This document shows, piece by piece, positions 2,110-32,673 of a stretch of DNA of 50,531 bases. The DNA comes from Ruminococcus sp. GTDB lineage: Bacteria > Bacillota > Clostridia > Oscillospirales > Ruminococcaceae. Each line of letters opens with the position of its first letter. The stretch's first letter is position 1. Where the stretch lies: assembly GCA_017934425.1 (NCBI GenBank), contig JAGBJO010000011.1:1-50531 (forward strand), written 5' to 3'. The notes below the pieces were generated by a model that saw nothing but the letters and a program-made list of their open reading frames with translations, did no database searches and was not told where the DNA came from. The translations under genes and the position numbers were made by a program.

Positions 2110-2940
2110 ATGAGATTCAGACCCTTAATTACTGCCGCTGTCCTTGGTGCAGTATGCGCTGTTTCCGCCCAGCAGACAGTATGCGTCGCAGCGGATAGCC
2201 AGAAGTCAGCGTCAGGGCTTATATCAAAGTGTATGCTCTCCTGCTCAGGCAGCGGAGGTATGCTGGATATATATGCGAAGACCCAGTCAACTATGGTAAT
2301 GGACAATATAGGTTTCAATGATATTGTCCTCCAGAAAAGCAGCGACGGAACAGATTGGACTGATGCGCTTTCATTAGGTTCAGTAGTCCACTCCGATCTT
2401 CGTTACTATACATACTCAGCGCAGATAAAGGTCGATGGGGGTTACTTCTATAGGGTAACCTGCATTCACTACGCTGAGGGCACTCCTTACAGGAGCAATG
2501 CCACATTTGTGCAGACCGCTGAAAATACGTCGAAGTCTTTCTTTATGGAGTCCGATCAGGGCAGCCATGGAGCCGCTGAAACTACTCCGCAGGTAACGTA
2601 TACCACGTCAGCACAGCCTGTGACACAGGTGCCAGCAATTCCGACCACTGCTGTCGCCGCTAACCTGCCGGAACCGCCGGTAACTACTACCCTTACCGCT
2701 GCTGCTATACCCGCATCAGCTACAACAGGGAATACTTCCGCTAAAACTTCCGCAGGCTCGTCCTCTGCTTCTACAGTCGTAACTTCCGGTACTGCTAATA
2801 CTGCCGTAAGTACAGCTTCTTCCAAGGCTGAGACTGCAAAAGAAGCAGGTCCACCCACTACCGGAACTTCTGCTCCCGCTGCTGCCGCTGTTACAGTGAT
2901 CGCAGCCTCCGCAGTTGTTCGACGCACCCGTAAGAAATAA
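2110..2940 (+). CDS. Secreted Thr/Ala-rich protein with PPTTG-type cell-wall sorting signal
   Basis: A 276-residue protein beginning at ATG 2110, 10 bases after the preceding stop, so probably cotranscribed. Residues 1-28 are a signal peptide. Residues about 35-155 look like a compact beta-sandwich with fibronectin/Ig-like features and some resemblance to DUF6147-type proteins (low confidence). Residues about 160-245 are a low-complexity Pro/Thr/Ala/Ser wall-spanning stalk. The end has the tripartite sorting pattern: PPTTG, a hydrophobic stretch and RRTRKK. By analogy with LPXTG proteins it would be attached to peptidoglycan by a sortase, although the motif is non-canonical. The operon position suggests the sigma/anti-sigma pair may respond to or control this surface protein. 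Ligand unknown. Confidence 0.6.
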   Translation: MRFRPLITAAVLGAVCAVSAQQTVCVAADSQKSASGLISKCMLSCSGSGGMLDIYAKTQSTMVMDNIGFNDIVLQKSSDGTDWTDALSLGSVVHSDLRYYTYSAQIKVDGGYFYRVTCIHYAEGTPYRSNATFVQTAENTSKSFFMESDQGSHGAAETTPQVTYTTSAQPVTQVPAIPTTAVAANLPEPPVTTTLTAAAIPASATTGNTSAKTSAGSSSASTVVTSGTANTAVSTASSKAETAKEAGPPTTGTSAPAAAAVTVIAASAVVRRTRKK

Positions 2941-3600
2941 CCGCAGGCACGGATATGCTGTGTAACGTCTGCATCGGCTCCTGGGGGGGATGCCGCAGAT
3001 ATTCACTGCAAGCTGTGGTAAATTCAAGGTGCAGCCGGTGAGTATGCCACTAAGCCTATACCGGATTACCTATAATTGTCTGTATTTTATTCCCGGTATG
3101 GCTCGTGCAAGTATCACCGTATCAAGCCAGCCGCAGCATATCATGACTACATAAGGCTTTCTTTAATATCTCAGGCAGCAGCATAGCGCTGTATACAGGC
3201 AGGCTATGTATGCACCAAAACGCTCAGGCTCAATAGGCAGAGCCGGAGCAGGGCTTATCTCCGCTCGCCCTAAAAAGCGGGAAACGCTGCTTTTGCACTG
3301 TAAGCAGTTAAATGTTAGGATGGATCTAAGAGAAATATTCTCCGCCGGAGGATTCCGGCAAAAGCCTGATTTTATCAGGGAAATAGGGGACTGCATATAC
3401 TTTATGCAGTCAGATGAGTGATAAGGGAAGTTCCGCCGTTCTCTTAAATGGGACGGCGAAGGACTTCTTTATCAGGAAATGGAACAGGTGCCATTAAAAC
3501 TACGAATATTCCAGTATTTGCTTTCAGATAATGCCTGCTGCGCTCCGCTGCTGATTTATGCGGAGCAGCGGTGGGTCAGCTATGTTGTAAATACGATGAA
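2941..3600. other. Long intergenic stretch without a confident gene
   Basis: Short open frames exist on both strands (for example 3206-3421 plus and 3163-3396 minus), but they lie on top of each other, lack a good ribosome site and resemble no family I know. Several short palindromes occur, including one around 3537-3570 (CTCCGC/GCGGAG). It may be decayed coding DNA or the long 3' untranslated region of the preceding operon. Confidence 0.4.
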
Positions 3601-3616
3601 ATAAGAGGGATGAAAT

Positions 3617-3655
3617 ACCGCAGGTGATGAGAGTCGCCTGCGGTGTCTTCTTTTT
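3617..3655 (+). terminator. Rho-independent terminator, plus strand
   Basis: ACCGCAGG (3617-3624) pairs with CCTGCGGT (3637-3644), followed by GTCTTCTTTTT. It would end plus-strand transcripts coming from the 498-2940 operon. It faces a minus-strand terminator a few bases away, so the two sets of transcripts stop against each other. Confidence 0.7.
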
Positions 3656-3659
3656 AAAA

Positions 3660-3796
3660 GAGAAACTGCCGCAAATGACGTACTGCGGCAGTTTCCCCGA
3701 AAAGGTGTGTATGTATATGAACGCCCGGAGGTATTGGGGCGATGAAACGGTTGAGAGCTGCGGGTCTTGTTGTATTACCCGCTTTCCTTTGTTCTG
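3660..3796 (-). ncRNA. Candidate small RNA, minus strand
   Basis: On the minus strand a promoter with TTGCAA and TATAAT 17 bases apart (3830-3802) predicts a start near 3796. The transcript would contain a GCGGGT...ACCCGC hairpin, then a GCCC...GGGC hairpin, and finish with a strong terminator whose stem is at 3662-3695 (GAAACTGCCGC/GCGGCAGTTTC), followed by CTCTTTT. That is about 135 nt with three hairpins and no open frame with a ribosome site. I do not recognise the family. Confidence 0.5.
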
Positions 3797-3801
3797 TCTA
3801 T

Positions 3802-3830
3802 ATTATACCCCCTATGCAGAAAAATTGCAA
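3802..3830 (-). promoter_or_regulatory. Sigma-A promoter of the minus-strand candidate RNA
   Basis: Read on the minus strand, TTGCAA (3830-3825), a 17-base spacer and TATAAT (3807-3802). No coding gene follows before the terminator at 3662-3695. Confidence 0.6.
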
Positions 3831-3912
3831 TAACAGGCGATTTTCAAATAGTATACAATTTAGTACATAAGGTTACAGACCGTTTTCATATCACGCCCTT
3901 CCAGTATTTTCT

Positions 3913-3942
3913 TTGACACTTCCGGCTATTCCTGCATAGAAT
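3913..3942 (+). promoter_or_regulatory. Sigma-A promoter of the plus-strand candidate RNA
   Basis: TTGACA (3913-3918), 18-base spacer, TAGAAT (3937-3942). No start codon with a ribosome site follows before a terminator at 4065-4104. Confidence 0.6.
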
Positions 3943-3948
3943 AGTGTA

Positions 3949-4104
3949 GACGACGGTGTGAATGAGAACGGCGGAGGCAAGTGGCATACGATGTAAAGCG
4001 CAGCGCTGCCCGTGAATAGCTCACTTCTGCAATAGGCTTCAGACCGCCGTTTTCATATAGATCAGGTCATGTTCCGGTATTCTCCGGGGCATGACCGTTT
4101 TTTT
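3949..4104 (+). ncRNA. Candidate structured small RNA, partly antisense to spoIIID
   Basis: From a promoter at 3913-3942 a transcript of about 155 nt would run to a strong terminator (GGTCATG 4065-4071, CATGACC 4090-4096, then seven Ts). Its 5' part AATGAGAACGGCGG can pair with CCGCCGTTTTCATA near 4045-4058, enclosing an inner AAGTG/CACTT stem and an AGCGC/GCGCT hairpin. This gives a rod-like fold loosely reminiscent of 6S RNA, although I cannot assign it. The last 38 bases lie opposite the end of spoIIID, and the spoIIID stop codon is inside the terminator stem. No protein frame is plausible. Confidence 0.5.
4065..4104 (+). terminator. Rho-independent terminator overlapping the spoIIID stop codon
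   Basis: The 7-bp outer stem GGTCATG/CATGACC with an inner CCGG/CCGG section is followed by GTTTTTTT on the plus strand. The minus strand lacks a T-run, so the terminator serves a plus-strand transcript, not spoIIID. Confidence 0.7.
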
Positions 4105-4354
4105 CGGCAAGTTCACGATACTTGCGCTGAGTTGCCATACCGCCACGGATATGGCGCTCCTGCTTATTTATTTCAAGAACGTCCCTGACCTTTGCATAAA
4201 GCTGAGGGTCTTGCTTTTTCAGACGCTCGCTTACATCCTTATGTACGGTGCTTTTTGATATCCCGAATTTGCTGGCAGCCGCACGTACTGTAGCACGGCA
4301 GTCAATGATGTACTGACCGAGAATGACCGCCCGTCGGTCAGGCTGCATCTTCAT
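4067..4354 (-). CDS. spoIIID: Sporulation transcriptional regulator SpoIIID
   Basis: A 95-residue DNA-binding protein; the Bacillus homologue has 93. SpoIIID acts in the mother cell, activating or repressing sigma-E genes and helping to switch on sigma-K. The helix-turn-helix is AAASKFGISKSTVHKDVSERL (residues about 26-46, only part quoted elsewhere), and the C-terminal basic segment HIRGGMATQRKYR is characteristic of the family. The start at 4354 is chosen because AAGGAGGTGATC lies just upstream; an open frame continues to 4438. A sigma-E-like -10 (TATACATT) occurs about 35 bases upstream with a poor -35 match. Its 3' end overlaps a terminator of a plus-strand RNA. Confidence 0.9.
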   Translation of the reverse strand: MKMQPDRRAVILGQYIIDCRATVRAAASKFGISKSTVHKDVSERLKKQDPQLYAKVRDVLEINKQERHIRGGMATQRKYRELAEKNGHAPENTGT

Positions 4355-4457
4355 ACAGATCACCTCCTTCCTGCTAATGTATATGCACAATAGAGGTGGG
4401 TAATTCATTTGGGGCGATGTATATAAGAACCTGTTCATTTTTCTTTCATATTTACTA

Positions 4458-4486
4458 TTGACAAATTACTTTATCAGTCCTATAAT
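4458..4486 (+). promoter_or_regulatory. Sigma-A promoter of the glycerophosphodiesterase gene
   Basis: TTGACA (4458-4463), 17 bases, TATAAT (4481-4486), a full consensus match. The leader to ATG 4549 is about 55 bases. Confidence 0.8.
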
Positions 4487-4548
4487 TTAAATAGTAATAT
4501 TCACCTGTTATAGGTTTAATATAAATTACTGGTAAAAGAGTGAACTTA

Positions 4549-6366
4549 ATGAAGAAAAAATTTTTTGGCTCTGTGGCGGTGTTCCTCAGGGCTATGCCCC
4601 ATTTCCTTGTCTTTGAGATGCTGTTCAAACTCATTCTTATGGGTATCGGCGCTCCGGCTATGACAAAGATACTGAAGCAGACCATGAAGGCTGCCGGTAT
4701 CTCCTATCTGTCCGATGAGAGTATGCTGGTCTACCTGAAAAAGCCGGTAACGCTGGCGGTCATAGTAATTATCCTGTTTATGATGGCACTGTTTTCATTC
4801 ATTGAGCTATCCGCACTTGCCGGGTGTTTTGCCTGTTTCCAGAAGAAGCAGCGGCTCTCCGCATCGAGTATGCTGACAACTGGTATACGGGCTTTTGTCA
4901 AGGCTTTCCGTGGTACTGGTATCCTCCATTTCATGCTGTTCATGCTGTTCATGCCTATGGCGCAGTTCACGCTGTCCTCTGGTATGTTTATGGCACCGGC
5001 GCTTCCGGTAGTGCAGCGGCTTTTCAGACCTATTGACAGCCGTATCGGAGTAGCAGTACTGATACTTATGAATGTGCTTTTCATAATGTTTATGGTCAGC
5101 CGAAGCTACAGCCTTCATCTGCTTGTCCTTACTGATAAGAAGTTCTCCGACTGTACAAAGACAAGCCGTGAGATGATCGGCAAGAATAAGCTGAAAATGA
5201 CACTATCCCTGCTTCTGTGGAGTCTGTTCATGATTGCGGCAGCGGCGGTAGTGACATTCGTTATCAGCTTCATTGTGCTGCTTTTCATCAAGGGTGTAAG
5301 CCGACCGGGAAGGGCAGTACTTGCGGCGCTGAAAGTACTGAGATACGCTGGTAAGATATTCATGGCGGTGTCTGCTTTCTTCTCAGCCCCGGCGATAATG
5401 TGCTGGCTGACCTGGCGTTTCCTTATGGATTATCCGGAGGACGAAAAGATAATACTCCCCAGCAGCGATACGAACCGCCTGGGAACTGTTCCCCGTGCAG
5501 CAATTGCGGTAATGGTAGCAGTAGTGGCATTTACACTGAATTTCAGCTATTTCAAGTCACTGTATCAGGGAAATATAAGCCTTAACGTGGGTATCCTTTC
5601 CAAGACCCAGATAACCGCCCACCGTGGTGCATCGAGAGAAGCGCCGGAGAATACACTGGAAGCCTTTGAAGCGGCGCTGGACAGCGGTGCGGATTACATC
5701 GAACTTGATGTACAGCTTACCAAGGACGAACAGCTTGTGGTGTTCCACGATGAGACGATCGACCGCACAACCAACGGCAAGGGTAAGCTTTGCGATATAA
5801 CCTATGCTGAGTTGCAGAAGTATTCAGCCGGTTCATGGTTCGGAACGAATAAAGAGTTTGCAGGGGCGAAAGTGCCGCTGCTGAGCGAAGTTCTTGACCT
5901 TGTGGGTGACGAGATAATGCTGAATATCGAGATAAAGAATCATGGCGACATTGTAAAGACAGTGGAAAAGACAGTGGAACTCATACATGAGTACGACATT
6001 ACAGAATCCTGCTATGTTACGTCGTTTTCCTACAAGGCGCTGAAGAATGTCAAGAAACTCGACCCTGACATCAAGACTGGTCTTATAGCGAATGTAGCGG
6101 CTGCATCTGGCTATTCACGGCTGAAATACGTTGATGTGCTGAGCCTGAACCAGATCTTCGTAAATGCAACAGTTGTAAGTGCCGCACACCAGAATGGCAA
6201 GAGGGTGTTTGTGTGGACCGTAGATCAGACCCCGGATATGAAGAAGATGATATCCCTGGGCGTTGACAATATCATCACCAACCGTCCGGCAGCCTGTGCG
6301 AAGATAGTCTACTCAGCTGATGTAGGCGACCAGGTGCTTAATATCCTGAAAACAATCTTTTCCTGA
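4549..6366 (+). CDS. Membrane glycerophosphodiester phosphodiesterase
   Basis: A 605-residue protein with two parts. Residues 1 to about 340 hold some seven or eight hydrophobic segments of the kind seen in the membrane domain of GlpQ-like enzymes. Residues about 355-590 are the GDPD catalytic domain with HRGA (His358), the metal-binding ExD in YIELDVQL and the FHD motif in LVVFHDETIDR. It should cleave glycerophosphodiesters, such as deacylated lipids or teichoic acid fragments, to sn-glycerol 3-phosphate and an alcohol. The membrane domain may orient it to the lipid surface. ATG 4549 is preferred (AAAGAG eight bases upstream); an in-frame GTG lies at 4540. It is monocistronic and ends at a terminator inside repeat R3. 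Confidence 0.85.
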   Translation: MKKKFFGSVAVFLRAMPHFLVFEMLFKLILMGIGAPAMTKILKQTMKAAGISYLSDESMLVYLKKPVTLAVIVIILFMMALFSFIELSALAGCFACFQKKQRLSASSMLTTGIRAFVKAFRGTGILHFMLFMLFMPMAQFTLSSGMFMAPALPVVQRLFRPIDSRIGVAVLILMNVLFIMFMVSRSYSLHLLVLTDKKFSDCTKTSREMIGKNKLKMTLSLLLWSLFMIAAAAVVTFVISFIVLLFIKGVSRPGRAVLAALKVLRYAGKIFMAVSAFFSAPAIMCWLTWRFLMDYPEDEKIILPSSDTNRLGTVPRAAIAVMVAVVAFTLNFSYFKSLYQGNISLNVGILSKTQITAHRGASREAPENTLEAFEAALDSGADYIELDVQLTKDEQLVVFHDETIDRTTNGKGKLCDITYAELQKYSAGSWFGTNKEFAGAKVPLLSEVLDLVGDEIMLNIEIKNHGDIVKTVEKTVELIHEYDITESCYVTSFSYKALKNVKKLDPDIKTGLIANVAAASGYSRLKYVDVLSLNQIFVNATVVSAAHQNGKRVFVWTVDQTPDMKKMISLGVDNIITNRPAACAKIVYSADVGDQVLNILKTIFS

Positions 6367-25522: not shown

Positions 25523-25933
25523 TTATTTGAAGTGCTTCTGGGAGACTTTAAGGCGGTTCATTGCACGGTTGAGTGCCGCCTGTGTCTGGTAGTACTCCAT
25601 GATGCTCTGCTTCTGGCGGAGCTGTTCCTCGGCACGCTGACGTGCTTCTTCTGCACGCTTTATGTCGATCTCCTCCGGAAGTTCGCAGGAATCAGCGAGT
25701 ATTACCGCCTTATCCGGGAGGACCTGGATAAAACCCTCGGATATAGCGGCGTAGTGCCACACTCCTCCGATCATATATTTCAGCTCTCCGGTGGGCAGAC
25801 AGGTAACAAGCGGCTCATGACCTGCCATGATACCTAAAAGTCCGTCGATAGCTGTTATAACCAGATGCTCCACCTGACCCTGGAAGAATATTCTGTCCGA
25901 GGCGATTATCTCAAGCTGAAAGGTCTTTTCCAT
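25523..25933 (-). CDS. atpC: ATP synthase epsilon subunit
   Basis: A 136-residue F1 epsilon subunit. It has the N-terminal beta-sandwich (FQLEIIASDRIFFQGQVEHLVI, about 5-26, GLLGIMAGHEPLVT about 33-46) and the C-terminal two-helix segment (about 90-130) that can inhibit ATP hydrolysis. It couples gamma rotation to the c-ring and is the last gene of the operon. It begins nine bases after atpD ends, with GGAGGAC within the atpD 3' end. Confidence 0.92.
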   Translation of the reverse strand: MEKTFQLEIIASDRIFFQGQVEHLVITAIDGLLGIMAGHEPLVTCLPTGELKYMIGGVWHYAAISEGFIQVLPDKAVILADSCELPEEIDIKRAEEARQRAEEQLRQKQSIMEYYQTQAALNRAMNRLKVSQKHFK

Positions 25934-25942
25934 AGCTTTGGT

Positions 25943-27352
<1,410 letters not shown>

Positions 27353-27369: not shown

Positions 27370-27933
27370 TTACTCAAAATCAAAAGTAGGATGGATCTTG
27401 GTTACGATCTCCTTGAAAAGCTGAGGGATATGAGCCTGAATAATGCCGCTGGGCAGGGGCGAGCGTCTGTAGATGCCGAAATGTATGGACTTGATGATAT
27501 TGTCTATCTCCTTGCTGTCGTAGGGAGGCAGTTCGAGGATAGGCGGCATAAGACACTGGAAGTCGTTGATGTCGATGTACATGGGGTTGAATGTTTCGTC
27601 GATGTCTATTTCAAGGACTACTGCATTTCCCTCGACAAGGTGATTCCAGAGTGACTCGATAACCTCCTTCTTAGAGCGGATAAGTGTCTTGAAAGCCTTA
27701 TAGTCAGGTATCTCGCAGGGGTTATTGTTCTCATCAGCGCCGGTGAAGCAGAATACCAGACCAGGGAATTCGCTGTTATGTATCTTATTGAAGTTATTGA
27801 GGACAGTATTATAAAGTACTGCCAGGTCAGGGTCACGTCTTACGTAGTCGCTCTCCTTAAATATAGGCTGATAAGAGCCGTTATTTGCAATAGCATTAAC
27901 TATGCCTGCATTCTGTACAGTCCATAATTTCAT
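27370..27933 (-). CDS. Protein of unknown function inside the atp operon (DUF3841-like)
   Basis: A 187-residue soluble protein between atpG and atpD in the same orientation, with gaps of 25 and 35 bases and its own good ribosome site (AAAGGAGCG). The start MKLWTVQ and overall size recall DUF3841 proteins, a family without known function; this assignment is tentative. It has no membrane helix and no signal peptide. It contains many aromatic and acidic residues (for example EIDIDETFNPMYIDIND) and a HNS-E-F motif around residue 55. It is not an ATP synthase subunit I know of. It may simply have been inserted, or may regulate or help assemble F1. Confidence 0.55.
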   Translation of the reverse strand: MKLWTVQNAGIVNAIANNGSYQPIFKESDYVRRDPDLAVLYNTVLNNFNKIHNSEFPGLVFCFTGADENNNPCEIPDYKAFKTLIRSKKEVIESLWNHLVEGNAVVLEIDIDETFNPMYIDINDFQCLMPPILELPPYDSKEIDNIIKSIHFGIYRRSPLPSGIIQAHIPQLFKEIVTKIHPTFDFE

Positions 27934-27958: not shown

Positions 27959-28870
27959 TTATTCTTCGCCGAGACTGTTAGCGCCACCGACTACCTCAGT
28001 GATCTCCTGAGTTATAGCCGCCTGTCTTGCACGGTTATACAGCAGCGACAGTTCTCGTATCATGTCTTTTGCACTTGTGGTAGCAGCGTCCATAGCGGTC
28101 ATTCTTGACTGCTGTTCGCAGCAGAACGCCTCGACCATAGCGCCGTAGATTATTCCCTTTGCGTACTGGGGGATAAGGTAGTCCATAACCTTTTCCGGCG
28201 AGGGAACGAATGATGCTTTCGGCAGCTTCTTCATAGTACCGTCGGAGGCTTTGCCCAGGTGCTTTCTCTCGAATGGGAGAAGGCGGAGGCTTCTTGTCTC
28301 CTGCACAGCAGACGTTACCATATCGGTGTACAGAACGTACACCTCATCAAGTTCGTGGTTGCGGAACTTCTCGATGACCAGTTCTGCTATCTCCATAGCC
28401 CTGTACATTGTAGGGTTCTGGGTGGTATACAGGAACTCGCTGTCAACGGTGAAGTTCTTGTCGTTGCGCTTTTTGTGCTGGAAATGCATTCTGCCCACCT
28501 GTCCCATTACGAACAGGTAGCAGTTGTCGATATCTGGTACTTCGTCTATCTTCTGCTCAGCGAACTTGATGATATTGTGGTTATAGCTTCCGCAAAGACC
28601 CTTGTCAGCTGTTATAACGATATAACCTTTTTTACGTTTTTCCTCAGGTATACCTGATCTTCTGTCGAAGAAAAGCTGACGGGTATGGGGAGTATGCTCC
28701 AGAACGCTGTCGATAGTTTCCTGGAGCTTATAGAAGTAAGGCTCAGTGGCTTCAAGTGATTTCCTTGCCTTTTTCAGCTTTGAGGACGACATCAGGTACA
28801 TAGCGTTAGTTATCTTGAGTATCTGCTGGATACTTGCGATACGCTCCCTGATCTCTCGCATATTAGCCAT
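27959..28870 (-). CDS. atpG: ATP synthase gamma subunit
   Basis: A 303-residue central-stalk subunit. The N-terminal helix REIRERIASIQQILKITNAM and the C-terminal helix with ARQAAITQEITEVVGGANSL form the coiled coil that rotates in the F1 core. The middle part forms the Rossmann-like globular domain (GYIVITADKGLCGSYN at about 82-97). Length is slightly above the usual 285-290. It begins 14 bases after the fused atpHA stop. Confidence 0.93.
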   Translation of the reverse strand: MANMREIRERIASIQQILKITNAMYLMSSSKLKKARKSLEATEPYFYKLQETIDSVLEHTPHTRQLFFDRRSGIPEEKRKKGYIVITADKGLCGSYNHNIIKFAEQKIDEVPDIDNCYLFVMGQVGRMHFQHKKRNDKNFTVDSEFLYTTQNPTMYRAMEIAELVIEKFRNHELDEVYVLYTDMVTSAVQETRSLRLLPFERKHLGKASDGTMKKLPKASFVPSPEKVMDYLIPQYAKGIIYGAMVEAFCCEQQSRMTAMDAATTSAKDMIRELSLLYNRARQAAITQEITEVVGGANSLGEE

Positions 28871-28884
28871 AGTCTTGCGCCTCC

Positions 28885-30903
28885 TTATTCCTCAAAGGCA
28901 GTAACGATACGCTCAATGCGCTCGCCCAGATCCTCGGTAAGCACCTTCTTCTCCTCGATCTCCTCGATGATGTCCTGACCATAGCTGCGGATATAGCTCA
29001 TAAGTTCAGAGGTATAGTCCTTCAGTTCTTTCAGGGGGATAAGGTCGAAAAGACCGTGCTGAGCCGCATACAGCAGTATTACCTGCTCATAGTGGGGCAG
29101 AGGGTGGTAAAGGGGCTGTTTCAGGAGTTCTGTCAGCATATGACCGTGGTTTAAGAGGTCAGTGGTAGTCTGGTCAAGTTCAGAGGAGAACTGTGTGAAT
29201 ATCTCCATTTCCTTGAACTGTGCCAGGTCGATACGCAGATTGCCGGCAGCCTTCTTCATAGCCTTAGTCTGTGCTGCACCGCCTACACGGGATACTGACA
29301 GACCGTAGTTTACCGCAGGACGCTGACCGGAGTTGAAAAGCTCGCTCTCCAGGAATATCTGTCCGTCGGTGATAGAGATAACGTTAGTAGGTATATAAGC
29401 GGAGATATCGCCAGCCAGAGTCTCGATAATAGGCAGGGCAGTAAGTGAACCACCGCCATGTTCGTCGTCAAGACGGCTGGAACGCTCCAGAAGTCTCGAA
29501 TGGAGATAGAAAACGTCGCCGGGGTATGCCTCACGTCCGGGCGGACGGTGCAGCAGCAGGGACATTGCACGGTAAGCAACAGCGTGCTTGGAGAGGTCAT
29601 CGTATACGATGAGAACGTCCTTGCCCTTTGACATGAAGTATTCAGCCATAGCCGTACCTGAATAGGGGGCAATGTACTGGAAAGGTGCAGGGTCGCTGGC
29701 GCTTGCGCATACAACTACGGAGTAATCCATAGCGCCGTACTTTTTCAGGGTATTAACTACCTGTGCAACGGTAGAATTCTTCTGACCGATAGCAACGTAG
29801 ATACAGATAACGTCCTGACCCTTCTGGTTTATGATAGTATCAACAGCGATAGAGGTCTTACCGGTCTGGCGGTCGCCGATGATAAGCTCACGCTGTCCAC
29901 GTCCGATAGGGAACATAGCGTCGATAGCCAGTATACCTGTCTGGAGCGGCACGTTTACCGACTTACGCTCGATAACGCCAGGGGCTTCACGCTCGATAGG
30001 GAAGTAATCGTCAGCACGGATAGCGCCCTGACCGTCGATAGGGCTTCCCAGGGCATCAACAACACGTCCCAGCAGCTCGTCACTTACGCCCACGCCGGCA
30101 CGCTTGCCAGTGCGGACAACTGTAGAGCCTTCTGTAAGACCGTGGTCATCGCCCAGGAGAACAACGCCTATAGACTTCTCCTCCAGGTTCTGAACGATAC
30201 CTCTTACGCCTGTCTCGAATTCAACAAGTTCGCCGTACATAACTGAGTTCATGCCGTGAACACGGGCGATACCGTCACCGATACGGGTAATGAAGCCTGT
30301 CTCAGTCTCGCCGGACTTTACGGTAAAGTCTTTTACTTCGGTTTTGAGTACAGATATGATATCGCCGGAATCAACGTCCTCGCTGTCGGTTATCTCAGTC
30401 GCTTTACTCTGGAGAGTTTCACGCATAGCACGCAGACTTGTGCGGTAGCTGCGGTCATACTCCACATCGCCGGCATTGAGGATAAATCCGCCGATAAGGT
30501 CGGGATCCTGGCGGTACTCGATATCAACGTCCTCCTTGACGAAGCGCTCCATGATGAACTTTTTCAGGTCAGCCTGCTGCACTTCTGTAAGGGGAGTAAC
30601 GTAGCGTACTACTGCCTTGATGCTTCCCTGCTTCTCGATGAGGATATCGATATAGTCCTCCAGTATTTCAGGGATATGGTCAACAGCCTTTTCCTTTACT
30701 GCGCTGTGGAAGAATTTTCCCATGCTCAGGGGAAAGAGCTTATTTATTACTGCTTCCTTCTCGTCGCTTGTTACCAGAGGGTTAGCGAGAGTCTCTGCCA
30801 CGTCCGGGCAAGTCTCCAGAACGCCCTTGGCAAGGTCGATATCCTCTCTGGGGATATCCTTGCGGACAAGCAGATCGAGCAGTTCCTTGTCAGTATCTCT
30901 CAT
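28885..30903 (-). CDS. atpHA: Fused ATP synthase delta-alpha subunit
   Basis: A single 672-residue frame. Residues 1-167 match the delta subunit (OSCP): the N-terminal helical bundle and the typical C-terminal segment [13 protein letters not shown]. Residues about 178-672 match the whole alpha subunit, with [13 protein letters not shown]-loop GDRQTGKTS and the terminal ALSTDDL-type helices region. The roughly 10-residue linker (168-178) is acidic. There is no in-frame ATG, GTG or TTG between Met160, which lies inside delta, and the alpha domain, and no ribosome site there, so separate alpha synthesis is not evident. Each F1 normally has three alpha and one delta, so a fusion poses a stoichiometry problem. 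It overlaps atpF by four bases. Confidence 0.88.
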
Positions 30904-31415
30904 TTACTGCTGCCCTCCTCCTCGGAAAGGAACTCGTCAACAAGCTTGCGGTTCTTTTCGTCGTCAAGGTTAGCGCCGACAATCTTGGAAGCGGCTTCGA
31001 TCGCAAGGTCAGCTATCTGGCTCTGAGCCTGCTGGATAACTCTCTTGCGTTCATTTTCGATAGTTTTACCGGCAGCCGCAACTATCTCGTCAGCCTCCTC
31101 CTGAGACTTCTTGATAAGAGCTGCCTTTTCAGCCTCGGCATCTTCGTGGGCTTTGGCGATTATCCTGCCAGCCTCGTCCTTGGCTTCGCTGATGGAATCC
31201 TCATACTGCTGCTTTAAAGCCTCAGCGTCCTCCTTAGCCTTCTTTGCAGAGTCGATATCCTCCTGGACGGAGCGAGTCCTGTCCTCCATGAGTTTATTTA
31301 TCGGCTTGAAAAGGAATATCCTAAGAAGTATGTAGAGAATGATAAGGTTGACAGCAGTCCAGATGAAGTTCCATATATTAATGTCAAGCATTGTGCCTTT
31401 CAGTGCTTCTCCCAT
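30900..31415 (-). CDS. atpF: ATP synthase b subunit
   Basis: A 171-residue peripheral-stalk subunit with one N-terminal membrane helix (about 13-32, [20 protein letters not shown]) followed by a long charged coiled coil that reaches delta at the top of F1. A single b gene is present, so a homodimer is expected. Its stop overlaps the start of the delta-alpha fusion by four bases. In this operon b and delta are separate, unlike the b-delta fusion known in mycobacteria. Confidence 0.92.
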
Positions 31416-31452: not shown

Positions 31453-31674
31453 TTATTTCAGCAGGAAGATTATAAGGATAGCAATAACGAAACCATAGAT
31501 AGCTGTAGCTTCTGCCAGAGCGCATCCCAGAAGGAGCGCCTTGTTGATATCGCCCTTAGCCTCAGGCTGACGAGCGATAGCGTCTGCTGCCTTAGATGTA
31601 GCGATACCGATACCGATACCAGCGCCAGCGCCTGTAAGAACTGCCAGACCTGCGCCCAGTGCTATTGAACCCAT
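31453..31674 (-). CDS. atpE: ATP synthase c subunit, second copy
   Basis: A 73-residue, two-helix c-ring protein with the ion-binding Glu in ALAEATAIYG (Glu54) and the polar loop ARQPEAKGD. At the positions where Na+-type rings have Gln in helix 1 and Ser after Glu, this protein has Ile and Ala, so H+ coupling is predicted. The protein is identical to the copy at 31732-31953. Their DNA differs at about 18 sites, all synonymous and mostly in the last third. It follows its twin after 57 bases. Confidence 0.93.
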   Translation of the reverse strand: MGSIALGAGLAVLTGAGAGIGIGIATSKAADAIARQPEAKGDINKALLLGCALAEATAIYGFVIAILIIFLLK

Positions 31675-31731: not shown

Positions 31732-31953
31732 TTACTTGAGTAAGAATATGATAAGTATAGCTATTACGAAGCCGTAGATAGCTGTAGCCTCAGCCAGGGC
31801 GCATCCCAGGAGGAGTGCCTTGTTGATATCGCCCTTAGCCTCAGGCTGACGAGCGATAGCATCTGCTGCTTTAGATGTAGCGATACCGATACCGATACCA
31901 GCGCCAGCGCCTGTAAGAACTGCCAGACCTGCGCCCAGTGCTATTGAACCCAT
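31732..31953 (-). CDS. atpE: ATP synthase c subunit, first copy
   Basis: 73 residues, identical in protein sequence to the next gene. The first two thirds of the two genes are almost identical in DNA, while the last third has many silent differences. That pattern suggests an old duplication with partial gene conversion. Two copies would raise the dose of a subunit needed at 9-15 per complex. The ribosome site GGAGGTATA lies upstream. It begins 30 bases after atpB. Confidence 0.93.
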   Translation of the reverse strand: MGSIALGAGLAVLTGAGAGIGIGIATSKAADAIARQPEAKGDINKALLLGCALAEATAIYGFVIAILIIFLLK

Positions 31954-31983: not shown

Positions 31984-32673
31984 TTATTCTTCCTCGCCCA
32001 TAGCCTCTGACATGAACAGAGATGTGAGGAATACGAATACATATGCCTGAATACAGCCGTCGAAGATATCAAAATAGAAGCTGAGCACCAGTGGGATACC
32101 CACGGGGATAACCATTTTGATAAGCTCCATTACAACGAATGCGCCAAGGACATTACCGAAAAGTCGCATACAAAGTGACAGAGGCTTGATAACAAGCTCC
32201 AGTATGTTCATCGGCAGCATCAGCGGCATAGGTTCTATGAAGCTGCGAAGCCAGCCCTTAGGCGATCTTTCTCTGATACCGCTGTACTGTATAAGGAGTA
32301 TAGCGAATATAGCTAAAGTAGCGGTAACGCCCATATCCTTCGTAGGCGGTCTTAATCCTACCAGACCGATTATATTCGATACGCCGATATATATAAGCAG
32401 AGTCTCAAGGAACGGCAGATAGCGCTTACCCTTCGGACCGAGTATCTCCAGGAAAAAGTTATTCATCCAGTTGATAGCTATTTCAAGCAGACATTGCGAA
32501 CCGGTAGGCACTTTTTTCAGCTTTCTTACCAGAAGTATGGAAGCTAATACAAGCACAGCCATTATTACCCATGTGATAACGCAGGACTCCGGTACGGGGA
32601 TACCGTTTCCTATTGGAATAGTAAACGCCACCCTACATTCGAGTTCTTCCTGTAGTTTCTCTCCGATATCCAT
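31984..32673 (-). CDS. atpB: ATP synthase a subunit
   Basis: A 229-residue membrane subunit with five or six helices, first gene of the operon. The essential Arg lies in KPLSLCMRLFGNVLGAF (about residues 163-179), which faces the c-ring Glu and provides the proton half-channels with the helix at the C-terminus. Length is typical of Clostridia. There is no atpI or uncharacterised gene between the promoter and atpB. The leader contains two hairpins, one terminator-like. Confidence 0.92.
   Translation of the reverse strand: MDIGEKLQEELECRVAFTIPIGNGIPVPESCVITWVIMAVLVLASILLVRKLKKVPTGSQCLLEIAINWMNNFFLEILGPKGKRYLPFLETLLIYIGVSNIIGLVGLRPPTKDMGVTATLAIFAILLIQYSGIRERSPKGWLRSFIEPMPLMLPMNILELVIKPLSLCMRLFGNVLGAFVVMELIKMVIPVGIPLVLSFYFDIFDGCIQAYVFVFLTSLFMSEAMGEEE

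Follow-up and report, generated by a model that had tools for sequence, protein, structure and literature searches.

A single frame for the delta and alpha subunits of ATP synthase

The gene described here lies in a stretch of 50,531 nucleotides from Ruminococcus sp. (assembly GCA_017934425.1, contig JAGBJO010000011.1, positions 1 to 50,531), which we call the window, and belongs to an ATP synthase operon in which the delta and alpha subunits are encoded together. It occupies positions 28885..30903 of the minus strand, stop codon included, as a single frame of 672 codons that runs from an ATG at 30903 to a TAA at 28885 and holds delta and a complete alpha (calculated mass of the chain 74.35 kDa). 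An earlier note on this DNA, which gave no strand for the gene, had read it as one 672-residue frame of the two subunits, and the family profiles bear this out. PF00213 (OSCP/delta) matches residues 20-164 over profile positions 24-172 (E 1.2e-25, 91 bits against a gathering cut-off of 22.3), the three alpha/beta Pfam domains match residues 202-266, 323-538 and 545-670, and the NCBIfam model TIGR00962 (atpA) matches residues 179-671 over positions 4-498 of 503 (772.5 bits, cut-off 484.45). The alpha part scores below the cut-off of TIGR03324, the N-ATPase or alternate F1F0 family (624.2 against 750.5 bits). Both domains of the delta part are present; the first 23 or so profile positions (helix 1) are not recognised, and the match begins at position 24.

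Within the chain, residues 1-90 make up the delta N-terminal domain (30634..30903, minus strand, as for all features that follow), which is about as long as in relatives, and residues 91-164 the delta C-terminal domain (30412..30633). An acidic linker of residues 165-180 (30364..30411), the most variable of the stretches compared, leads into alpha at residues 181-672 (28888..30363), whose own N-terminal helix (residues 181-193) is almost invariant. The domain limits first proposed, delta at 1-167 and alpha at 178-672, were right to within a few residues.

The operon has the order a, c, c, b, delta-alpha, gamma, a 187-residue frame, beta, epsilon. Subunit a is present there in a single copy (31984..32673), followed by two tandem copies of subunit c (31732..31953, 73 residues, and 31453..31674) and by subunit b (30900..31415, 171 residues), whose stop codon overlaps the start of the fusion as ATGA; an approximate Shine-Dalgarno stretch of the fusion (GAGGAGGAGG, 30914..30924) lies inside the end of the b gene. 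Gamma (27959..28870), beta (25943..27334) and epsilon (25523..25933) complete the set. The two c genes encode an identical 73-residue protein, and relatives carry one to three c genes where the locus reaches that far. The 187-residue frame between gamma and beta (27370-27933) has no match in Pfam or NCBIfam; in relatives the gap between these two genes measures from about -20 to 1,312 bases and holds other, unrelated small frames or none, and it looks like an insertion spot within the operon.

The fusion in Ruminococcus and in named genomes

To describe the distribution of the fusion within the genus, we used a set of 100 same-genus genomes, the window's own included. A search with the whole protein found matches in 95 of them, and the delta-alpha fusion is present in 91, as a full open frame in 88 and in a cut or broken form in three (G036, G033 and G061). 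No separate delta accompanies it in 83 of these 91 genomes, eight also have one, and only the unfused form occurs in four of the 95 genomes with a delta. Of the 55 good-quality genomes (completeness of 90% or more, contamination of 5% or less), 48 have no delta apart from the fusion, four have both forms and three have only the unfused one; each of the 48 gave a single alpha match (E 1e-60), with no second alpha. Most genomes of the genus yielded no delta gene and no alpha gene other than delta-alpha. The draft genome to which the window belongs is 54% complete; the part of it that was searched contains no other delta or alpha, the second alpha match being the beta gene. The eight genomes with both forms (G034, G043, G085, G021, G081, G042, G066 and G094) carry, beside the fusion, a separate unfused delta together with an unfused alpha of about 54-61% identity, and G066 has a third, weak match in a 758-residue frame.

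From the 108 relatives of the delta part that a scan of named genomes returned, we retained 80 loci. Every one of these is fused, 76 are titled Ruminococcus, and they include the R. flavefaciens isolates FD-1, ATCC 19208, 007c and SAb67; the short frames among them are those of L115, at a contig end, and L095, which ends early at 576 residues. Two loci titled Alistipes (L120 and L145) carry the Ruminococcus type of fusion, and these bins are probably mislabelled or mixed. The occurrence of the fusion in both sets confirms that it is real and neither a chance event nor an artefact.

Repeated changes between the fused and the separate state

The search of related genomes that the earlier note had called for found the fusion well beyond the genus, recurring across the phylum and in many cases lacking the delta N-terminal domain. 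On an alpha tree of the family with 76 rows (L001, L002, L032, L034 and rows with fewer than 200 residues after the P-loop were dropped), the fused state needs four changes, all of them forced by well supported branches. Clade A, the genus Ruminococcus, has L037-L039 and L045 as unfused sisters; clade B (L043, L046, L051 and L068) has L047 and L048, clade C (L069 and L070) has L042 and L044, and clade D (L062-L067) has L050. In the family draw, 207 of 297 genomes have a delta and at least 26 have the fusion: five in the genus, four in clade B, two in clade C, six in clade D, six further fusions that lack the delta N-terminal domain, and three in which an arm resembling subunit b is fused as well (b'-delta-alpha).

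A draw of 398 genomes from the phylum added at least 15 others with an open fused frame. The more careful of two wider alpha trees (87 rows, with 12 of the 38 genus rows kept and the alpha frame taken from 37 of the 40 added loci, not from L182, L188 or L190) requires seven changes, five of them forced; a quick tree of 95 rows, which takes in seven more fused-type family loci and one unfused locus and from which L237 is absent, requires six, again with five forced. The order within the clade of L162, L163, L042/L044 and L069-L176 rests on branches with support of 87/80 and 90/84, and the branch of L215 is very long. A single origin of the fusion is rejected by all three trees. Each change may be either a gain or a loss, but gains appear to be the simpler reading of most of them, because losing the fusion would require a new stop, a new ribosome site and a new start. 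A 586-residue frame, L177, was dismissed as a fusion since the stretch upstream of its alpha is not delta, and a 595-residue frame in G173, in which the pattern used did not find the alpha P-loop, was left uncounted.

Loss of the delta N-terminal domain and the b'-delta-alpha chains

Many fused genes outside Ruminococcus do not have the same delta part as the window. Of the 15 fused genes from the phylum draw, 14 (L163-L176) lack the delta N-terminal domain and L162 keeps it; in the family the domain is missing from L068-L070, L214, L216, L217, L219, L220 and L222. The delta profile is matched in these fusions only from position 83-113 on (for L168 from position 89, scanning the protein itself), and the delta match of L175, from G614, has 21.5 bits, below the Pfam cut-off. 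Most of them sit on the alpha trees in fused clades other than Ruminococcus. In the 12 such operons that we examined the fusion comes after b, and no separate frame for a delta N-terminal domain lies between the two; a delta match in G393 that would run upstream through two stops over the b gene was taken as noise. The shortened fusion is the only delta in 15 of 23 genomes, namely G164, G256, G662, G560, G457, G413, G694, G393 and G474, together with G361, G315, G383, G182, G159 and G280; the genome of G413 is a single contig of 2.9 Mb. In the operons of L069, L175 and L176 a frame of 285-385 residues with an unusual N-terminus stands at the expected place of subunit a, and the c genes encode 120-142 residues with leader-like N-termini.

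Separate deltas keep both domains almost throughout: 23 of the 24 unfused deltas compared (169-202 residues) span the two, and in the remaining one, L045, the frame is cut by the contig start. The L045 locus (G358) has two delta-like C-terminal stretches in tandem, within one 202-residue frame ahead of alpha. Two further unfused deltas, in G151 and G149, are matched only from profile positions 64 and 84, and their frames of 167 and 189 residues may contain a diverged N-terminal domain. All clear losses of the N-terminal domain come from deltas that are joined to alpha. The simplest interpretation, which we infer from the genes, is that a tether to alpha can take over the anchoring task of that domain.

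A more extensive fusion occurs in three of the 297 family genomes, from two genera: L215 in G342 (2112-4322), L237 in G218 (2400-4649) and L221 in G293 (1403-2074, cut by the contig end). The 736-residue frame of L215 consists of a b-like arm, a delta C-terminal domain (residues 152-228) and alpha; PF00430 matches residues 4-107 of the arm with 23.9 bits, under the cut-off of 28, and a separate b gene of 141 residues (37.4 bits) lies directly ahead, with a, c, gamma and beta around. L237 is a 749-residue frame of the same kind, with 44% identity over the b'-delta part, and follows a b-like gene of 138 residues, while L221 shows the same arrangement up to the end of its contig. All three chains lack the delta N-terminal domain. 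The b'-delta-alpha chain is the only delta in G342 and G293, and G218 has another; no match was found in the two other members of G342's genus that were searched. Provided that these chains function uncut, each alpha would extend a stalk arm of its own into the membrane, an arrangement that would be hard to square with a single stalk.

Evolution of the two delta domains

To compare the pace of the two delta domains, we expressed the tree length of each relative to that of alpha, on a fixed FastTree topology (LG+G4, 20 bootstraps) and with nested sets of unfused sequences. Two fused clades entered the comparison, the genus with sets of 15 and 8 rows that share three, and clade D with six rows. 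The C-terminal domain has median relative rates of 1.3-1.7 in these two clades against 3.3-4.0 in the unfused sets, with intervals that do not overlap, and is slowed two- to threefold in the fused clades tested. For the N-terminal domain the unfused sets give medians of 4.1-7.3, the genus 4.7-4.9 and clade D 3.7. We had expected a relaxed N-terminal domain after fusion and did not find it; the change lies in the C-terminal domain. The slowing fits a part that works at all three alphas, or that packs on its own alpha helix in each copy. The normal pace of the N-terminal domain relative to alpha says that this domain is not simply a relic and would still have a task.

The same division is visible in 49 Ruminococcus proteins, whose mean entropy is lowest in the alpha helix (0.14 bits) and highest in the linker (1.91), with 0.46 for the C-terminal domain and 1.30 for the N-terminal domain after helix 1. 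The distance from the EYDxS motif to the alpha helix is 32-39 residues in 46 of the 49, those in which both motifs were found. The intact fusions of the genus start on the delta profile at positions 18-28, compared with positions 1-4 in 12 unfused deltas of the genus, and the unrecognised helix 1 might be taken for a result of the fusion. We dropped this explanation, as a late start (19-35) is also found in five of nine unfused relatives (L038, L039, L040, L047 and L053, not L037, L041, L042 and L050), among them two of the three direct unfused sisters. The changed helix 1 thus arose before the fusion or apart from it, and is a diverged helix and not a mark of fusion. By eye, and as a weak sign, a Tyr-Ala/Gly motif of helix 1 is kept in the sisters L037-L039 and in clade D and not in the genus.

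Comparison with known systems

Several ATPases with fused or multiplied stalk elements offer themselves for comparison. V/A-type ATPases have two or three peripheral stalks, which are attached to the non-catalytic subunit, a relative of alpha. A fused F1 with several stalks would work alike, although the subunits of the window are F-type by family.

The earlier note knew of no delta-alpha fusion, and on this point it has been overtaken. In Ueno et al. 2025 (PMC12229609), an FoF1 of Bacillus PS3 is described in which delta, without residues 2-104, was joined to alpha (delta-deltaN-alpha); it carries up to three stalks and has a proton-to-ATP ratio of 5.8 against 3.0. Cryo-EM revealed three nearly identical b2 stalk sites, with the delta C-terminal domain binding the b dimer, and the authors conclude that the delta N-terminal domain, on the threefold axis, limits the stalks to one. 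The Discussion of the same article names natural fusions without this domain in Acidaminococcus fermentans and in the UniProt entries G4Q3K6 and A0A1I2C5T3; by that description they are natural delta-alpha proteins encoded within the ATP synthase operon, like that of the window, from which they differ by the missing domain. The shortened fusions reported here have their joint and alpha family as in the window, with delta matched only from about position 83-113, and the b'-delta-alpha chains share the joint between the delta C-terminal domain and alpha and add the b-like arm.

The window resembles the engineered PS3 protein in that the C-terminus of delta is joined in frame to the N-terminus of alpha by a short linker, with the same order of segments. 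PDB entry 9jc1, which from its molecule name we take to be the structure of PMC12229609, aligns with the window over the C-terminal domain, the linker and the alpha helix (E 1.9e-14) with a single five-residue gap, the window's linker being five residues longer. The two differ in that the window's protein is natural, serves most genomes of the genus as their sole delta and retains the delta N-terminal domain, with residues 1-90 aligning with such domains. Delta is not encoded as a separate polypeptide in the window but shares one frame with alpha. In the b-delta fusion of mycobacteria and Gordonia (PMC5709465; PDB 7jg5 and 9vkp) delta is joined to b and one delta per F1 is kept, whereas in Ruminococcus its partner is alpha, of which F1 contains three.

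Two supposed precedents fell away: the available text on Nannochloropsis (PMC3999925) gives its atpD as a separate gene, and the expression "b-delta-alpha" in that of PMC5709465 denotes gene order and not a triple fusion. Among the papers listed by full-text searches of open-licence literature there was none on a natural delta-alpha fusion besides PMC12229609, and nothing on the Ruminococcus fusion, on a fusion that keeps the N-terminal domain or on b'-delta-alpha. The delta-alpha fusion was thus already known, and the Ruminococcus form departs from those described in retaining the delta N-terminal domain.

A proposed head with three tethered deltas and the alternatives

We propose that in the ATP synthase of Ruminococcus alpha is made as part of one delta-alpha chain, which very probably stays a single uncut chain. 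If it does, each alpha3beta3 head would carry three delta domains tethered to the three alpha N-termini, because the fusion is, in most genomes, the only source of delta and alpha is present three times. The earlier note had reached this stoichiometry from one locus, and the 48 fusion-only genomes among the 55 of good quality lend it support; three tethered delta C-terminal domains per F1 are, in our judgement, likely. Like its counterpart in the engineered fusion, each of these domains would dock on the N-terminal helix of the alpha to which it is joined, where it might offer a site for a b2 stalk. The tether may replace the N-terminal domain as the anchor of delta on F1, the losses of that domain being plain and the reason for them our reading; since it can do so, the head could take between one and three stalks; each might bring an a subunit, and extra stalks with their a subunits would raise the number of protons moved per ATP. 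As a whole, from one delta-alpha chain through to a head that can accept one to three stalks, we regard the proposal as reasonably probable. That more than one stalk is present in a real share of the complexes is conceivable, though we would not quite expect it. Our best reading is a natural F1 with three deltas that is possibly multi-stalk.

Four observations weigh against the proposal. A separate full-length delta is encoded elsewhere in eight of the 23 genomes with a shortened fusion; the window and the genus retain the delta N-terminal domain, which evolves no faster there than in unfused proteins; the window's operon has one a gene and one b gene of ordinary length; and the one-stalk rule, as formulated in PMC12229609, argues for one stalk in the window. 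By that rule the relatives without the domain would be better multi-stalk candidates than the window itself.

The most serious alternative, which we hold to be a real possibility if somewhat short of an even chance, is that all three deltas are present and only one works, with one N-terminal domain on the axis, one C-terminal domain on the single b2 stalk and two copies of delta idle; the fusion would then guarantee every F1 a delta. The constraint on the N-terminal domain, the role of the axial domain as one-stalk limiter in PMC12229609 and the single a and b genes all speak for it, and the unrecognised helix 1, being common to the unfused sisters, gives no sign of a lost task. The C-terminal domain, however, is two to three times more constrained than in unfused proteins, which idle copies do not predict, and the axial domain is gone in many fused relatives, with b' fused as well in three genomes.

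A second alternative, improbable in our estimate, is that cleavage in the linker separates the translated chain into free delta and alpha, and that surplus delta is degraded. Cutting would restore the stoichiometry of one delta, and the linker is acidic, may be exposed and is far more variable than its flanks (1.91 bits against 0.46 and 0.14). No conserved site is seen in it, however, and both its sequence and its length vary (32-39 residues from motif to helix, in 46 of 49 proteins); cutting would, in the relatives without the N-terminal domain, release a delta without its anchoring domain, and the fused state arose or was lost several times.

A third alternative is that separate alpha is also made by internal initiation, so that F1 could hold one fusion and two plain alphas. 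The earlier note had offered internal initiation as a way out, while observing that no in-frame start or ribosome site lies between Met160 and alpha. We scored every ATG, GTG and TTG from the delta YDxS motif to the alpha barrel by its pairing with the 16S tail in 50 fused genes (L001, L032 and L034 were omitted as repeats), and took as real starts the best site in the first 45 codons of fused genes or 20-45 codons ahead of the barrel in unfused ones. In the window, Met160 (codon 30424..30426) is the sole candidate between the YDRS motif and the barrel, with 0.0 kcal/mol and no Shine-Dalgarno pairing, and a start there would leave part of delta on alpha; the true start has -12.3 kcal/mol, and its strong ribosome site falls within the last part of b. 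Over the 50 genes the median is -11.9 kcal/mol for the best start among the first 45 codons; for the best internal site, over the 47 genes with any start codon there, it is -2.8 kcal/mol. Of the three others, the anchor was misplaced in L066 and L079, and only L078 truly has none. In 27 separate alpha genes the start lies 35-38 codons ahead of the barrel with -5.1 to -10.8 kcal/mol, and L038 and L042, two unfused sisters, have CGGAGGTGA at the end of delta, which brings together the stop and the likely ribosome site of alpha. A minority of fused relatives do have better internal sites (GTG at -7.1 in L008 and L010, -7.2 in L014, -7.0 in L062 and -5.5 in L070; ATG at -5.7 in L062-L064), and L051 has an ATG that matches the Met near the alpha start of its unfused sister (-4.3) and another at -7.8. 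These sites are not common to the genus within the 50 genes, and several are placed further into alpha. Start scoring disfavours internal initiation, which appears unlikely, and a head of mixed composition would be a very remote prospect. Finally, an assembly or sequencing error, which a 54%-complete draft might suggest, is refuted because 91 of the 100 genus genomes and all 80 named loci, several R. flavefaciens isolates included, carry the fusion.

Implications

If the proposed head with its three tethered deltas is taken to its full extent, the F-type ATP synthase of R. flavefaciens and its relatives would naturally have several stalks. Each of the three alphas would come with a delta of its own and be able to bind a separate b2 stalk and a subunit, and the delta N-terminal domain would have a new place or task in a threefold head. 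In other genera of the family b' would be joined on too, making a stalk arm part of each alpha chain, and the stop separating delta from alpha would have been lost on several occasions. We put this wider picture forward as a tentative conjecture, less likely than not to hold. If it is true, stator arms could be as many as three times their normal number, and protons per ATP with them, a suitable arrangement for fermenters whose proton gradient is weak.

That delta and alpha were fused repeatedly, that the delta N-terminal domain was lost in many of the fusions and that b' joined the chain in some genomes suggests selection for fusion. Ruminococcus would also be a direct natural test of the one-stalk rule, since it keeps the very domain that is blamed for the limit in PMC12229609. 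In this genus of the rumen and gut, most genomes, those of cultured strains among them, have for their only delta a natural fusion in a form that the engineers did not make.

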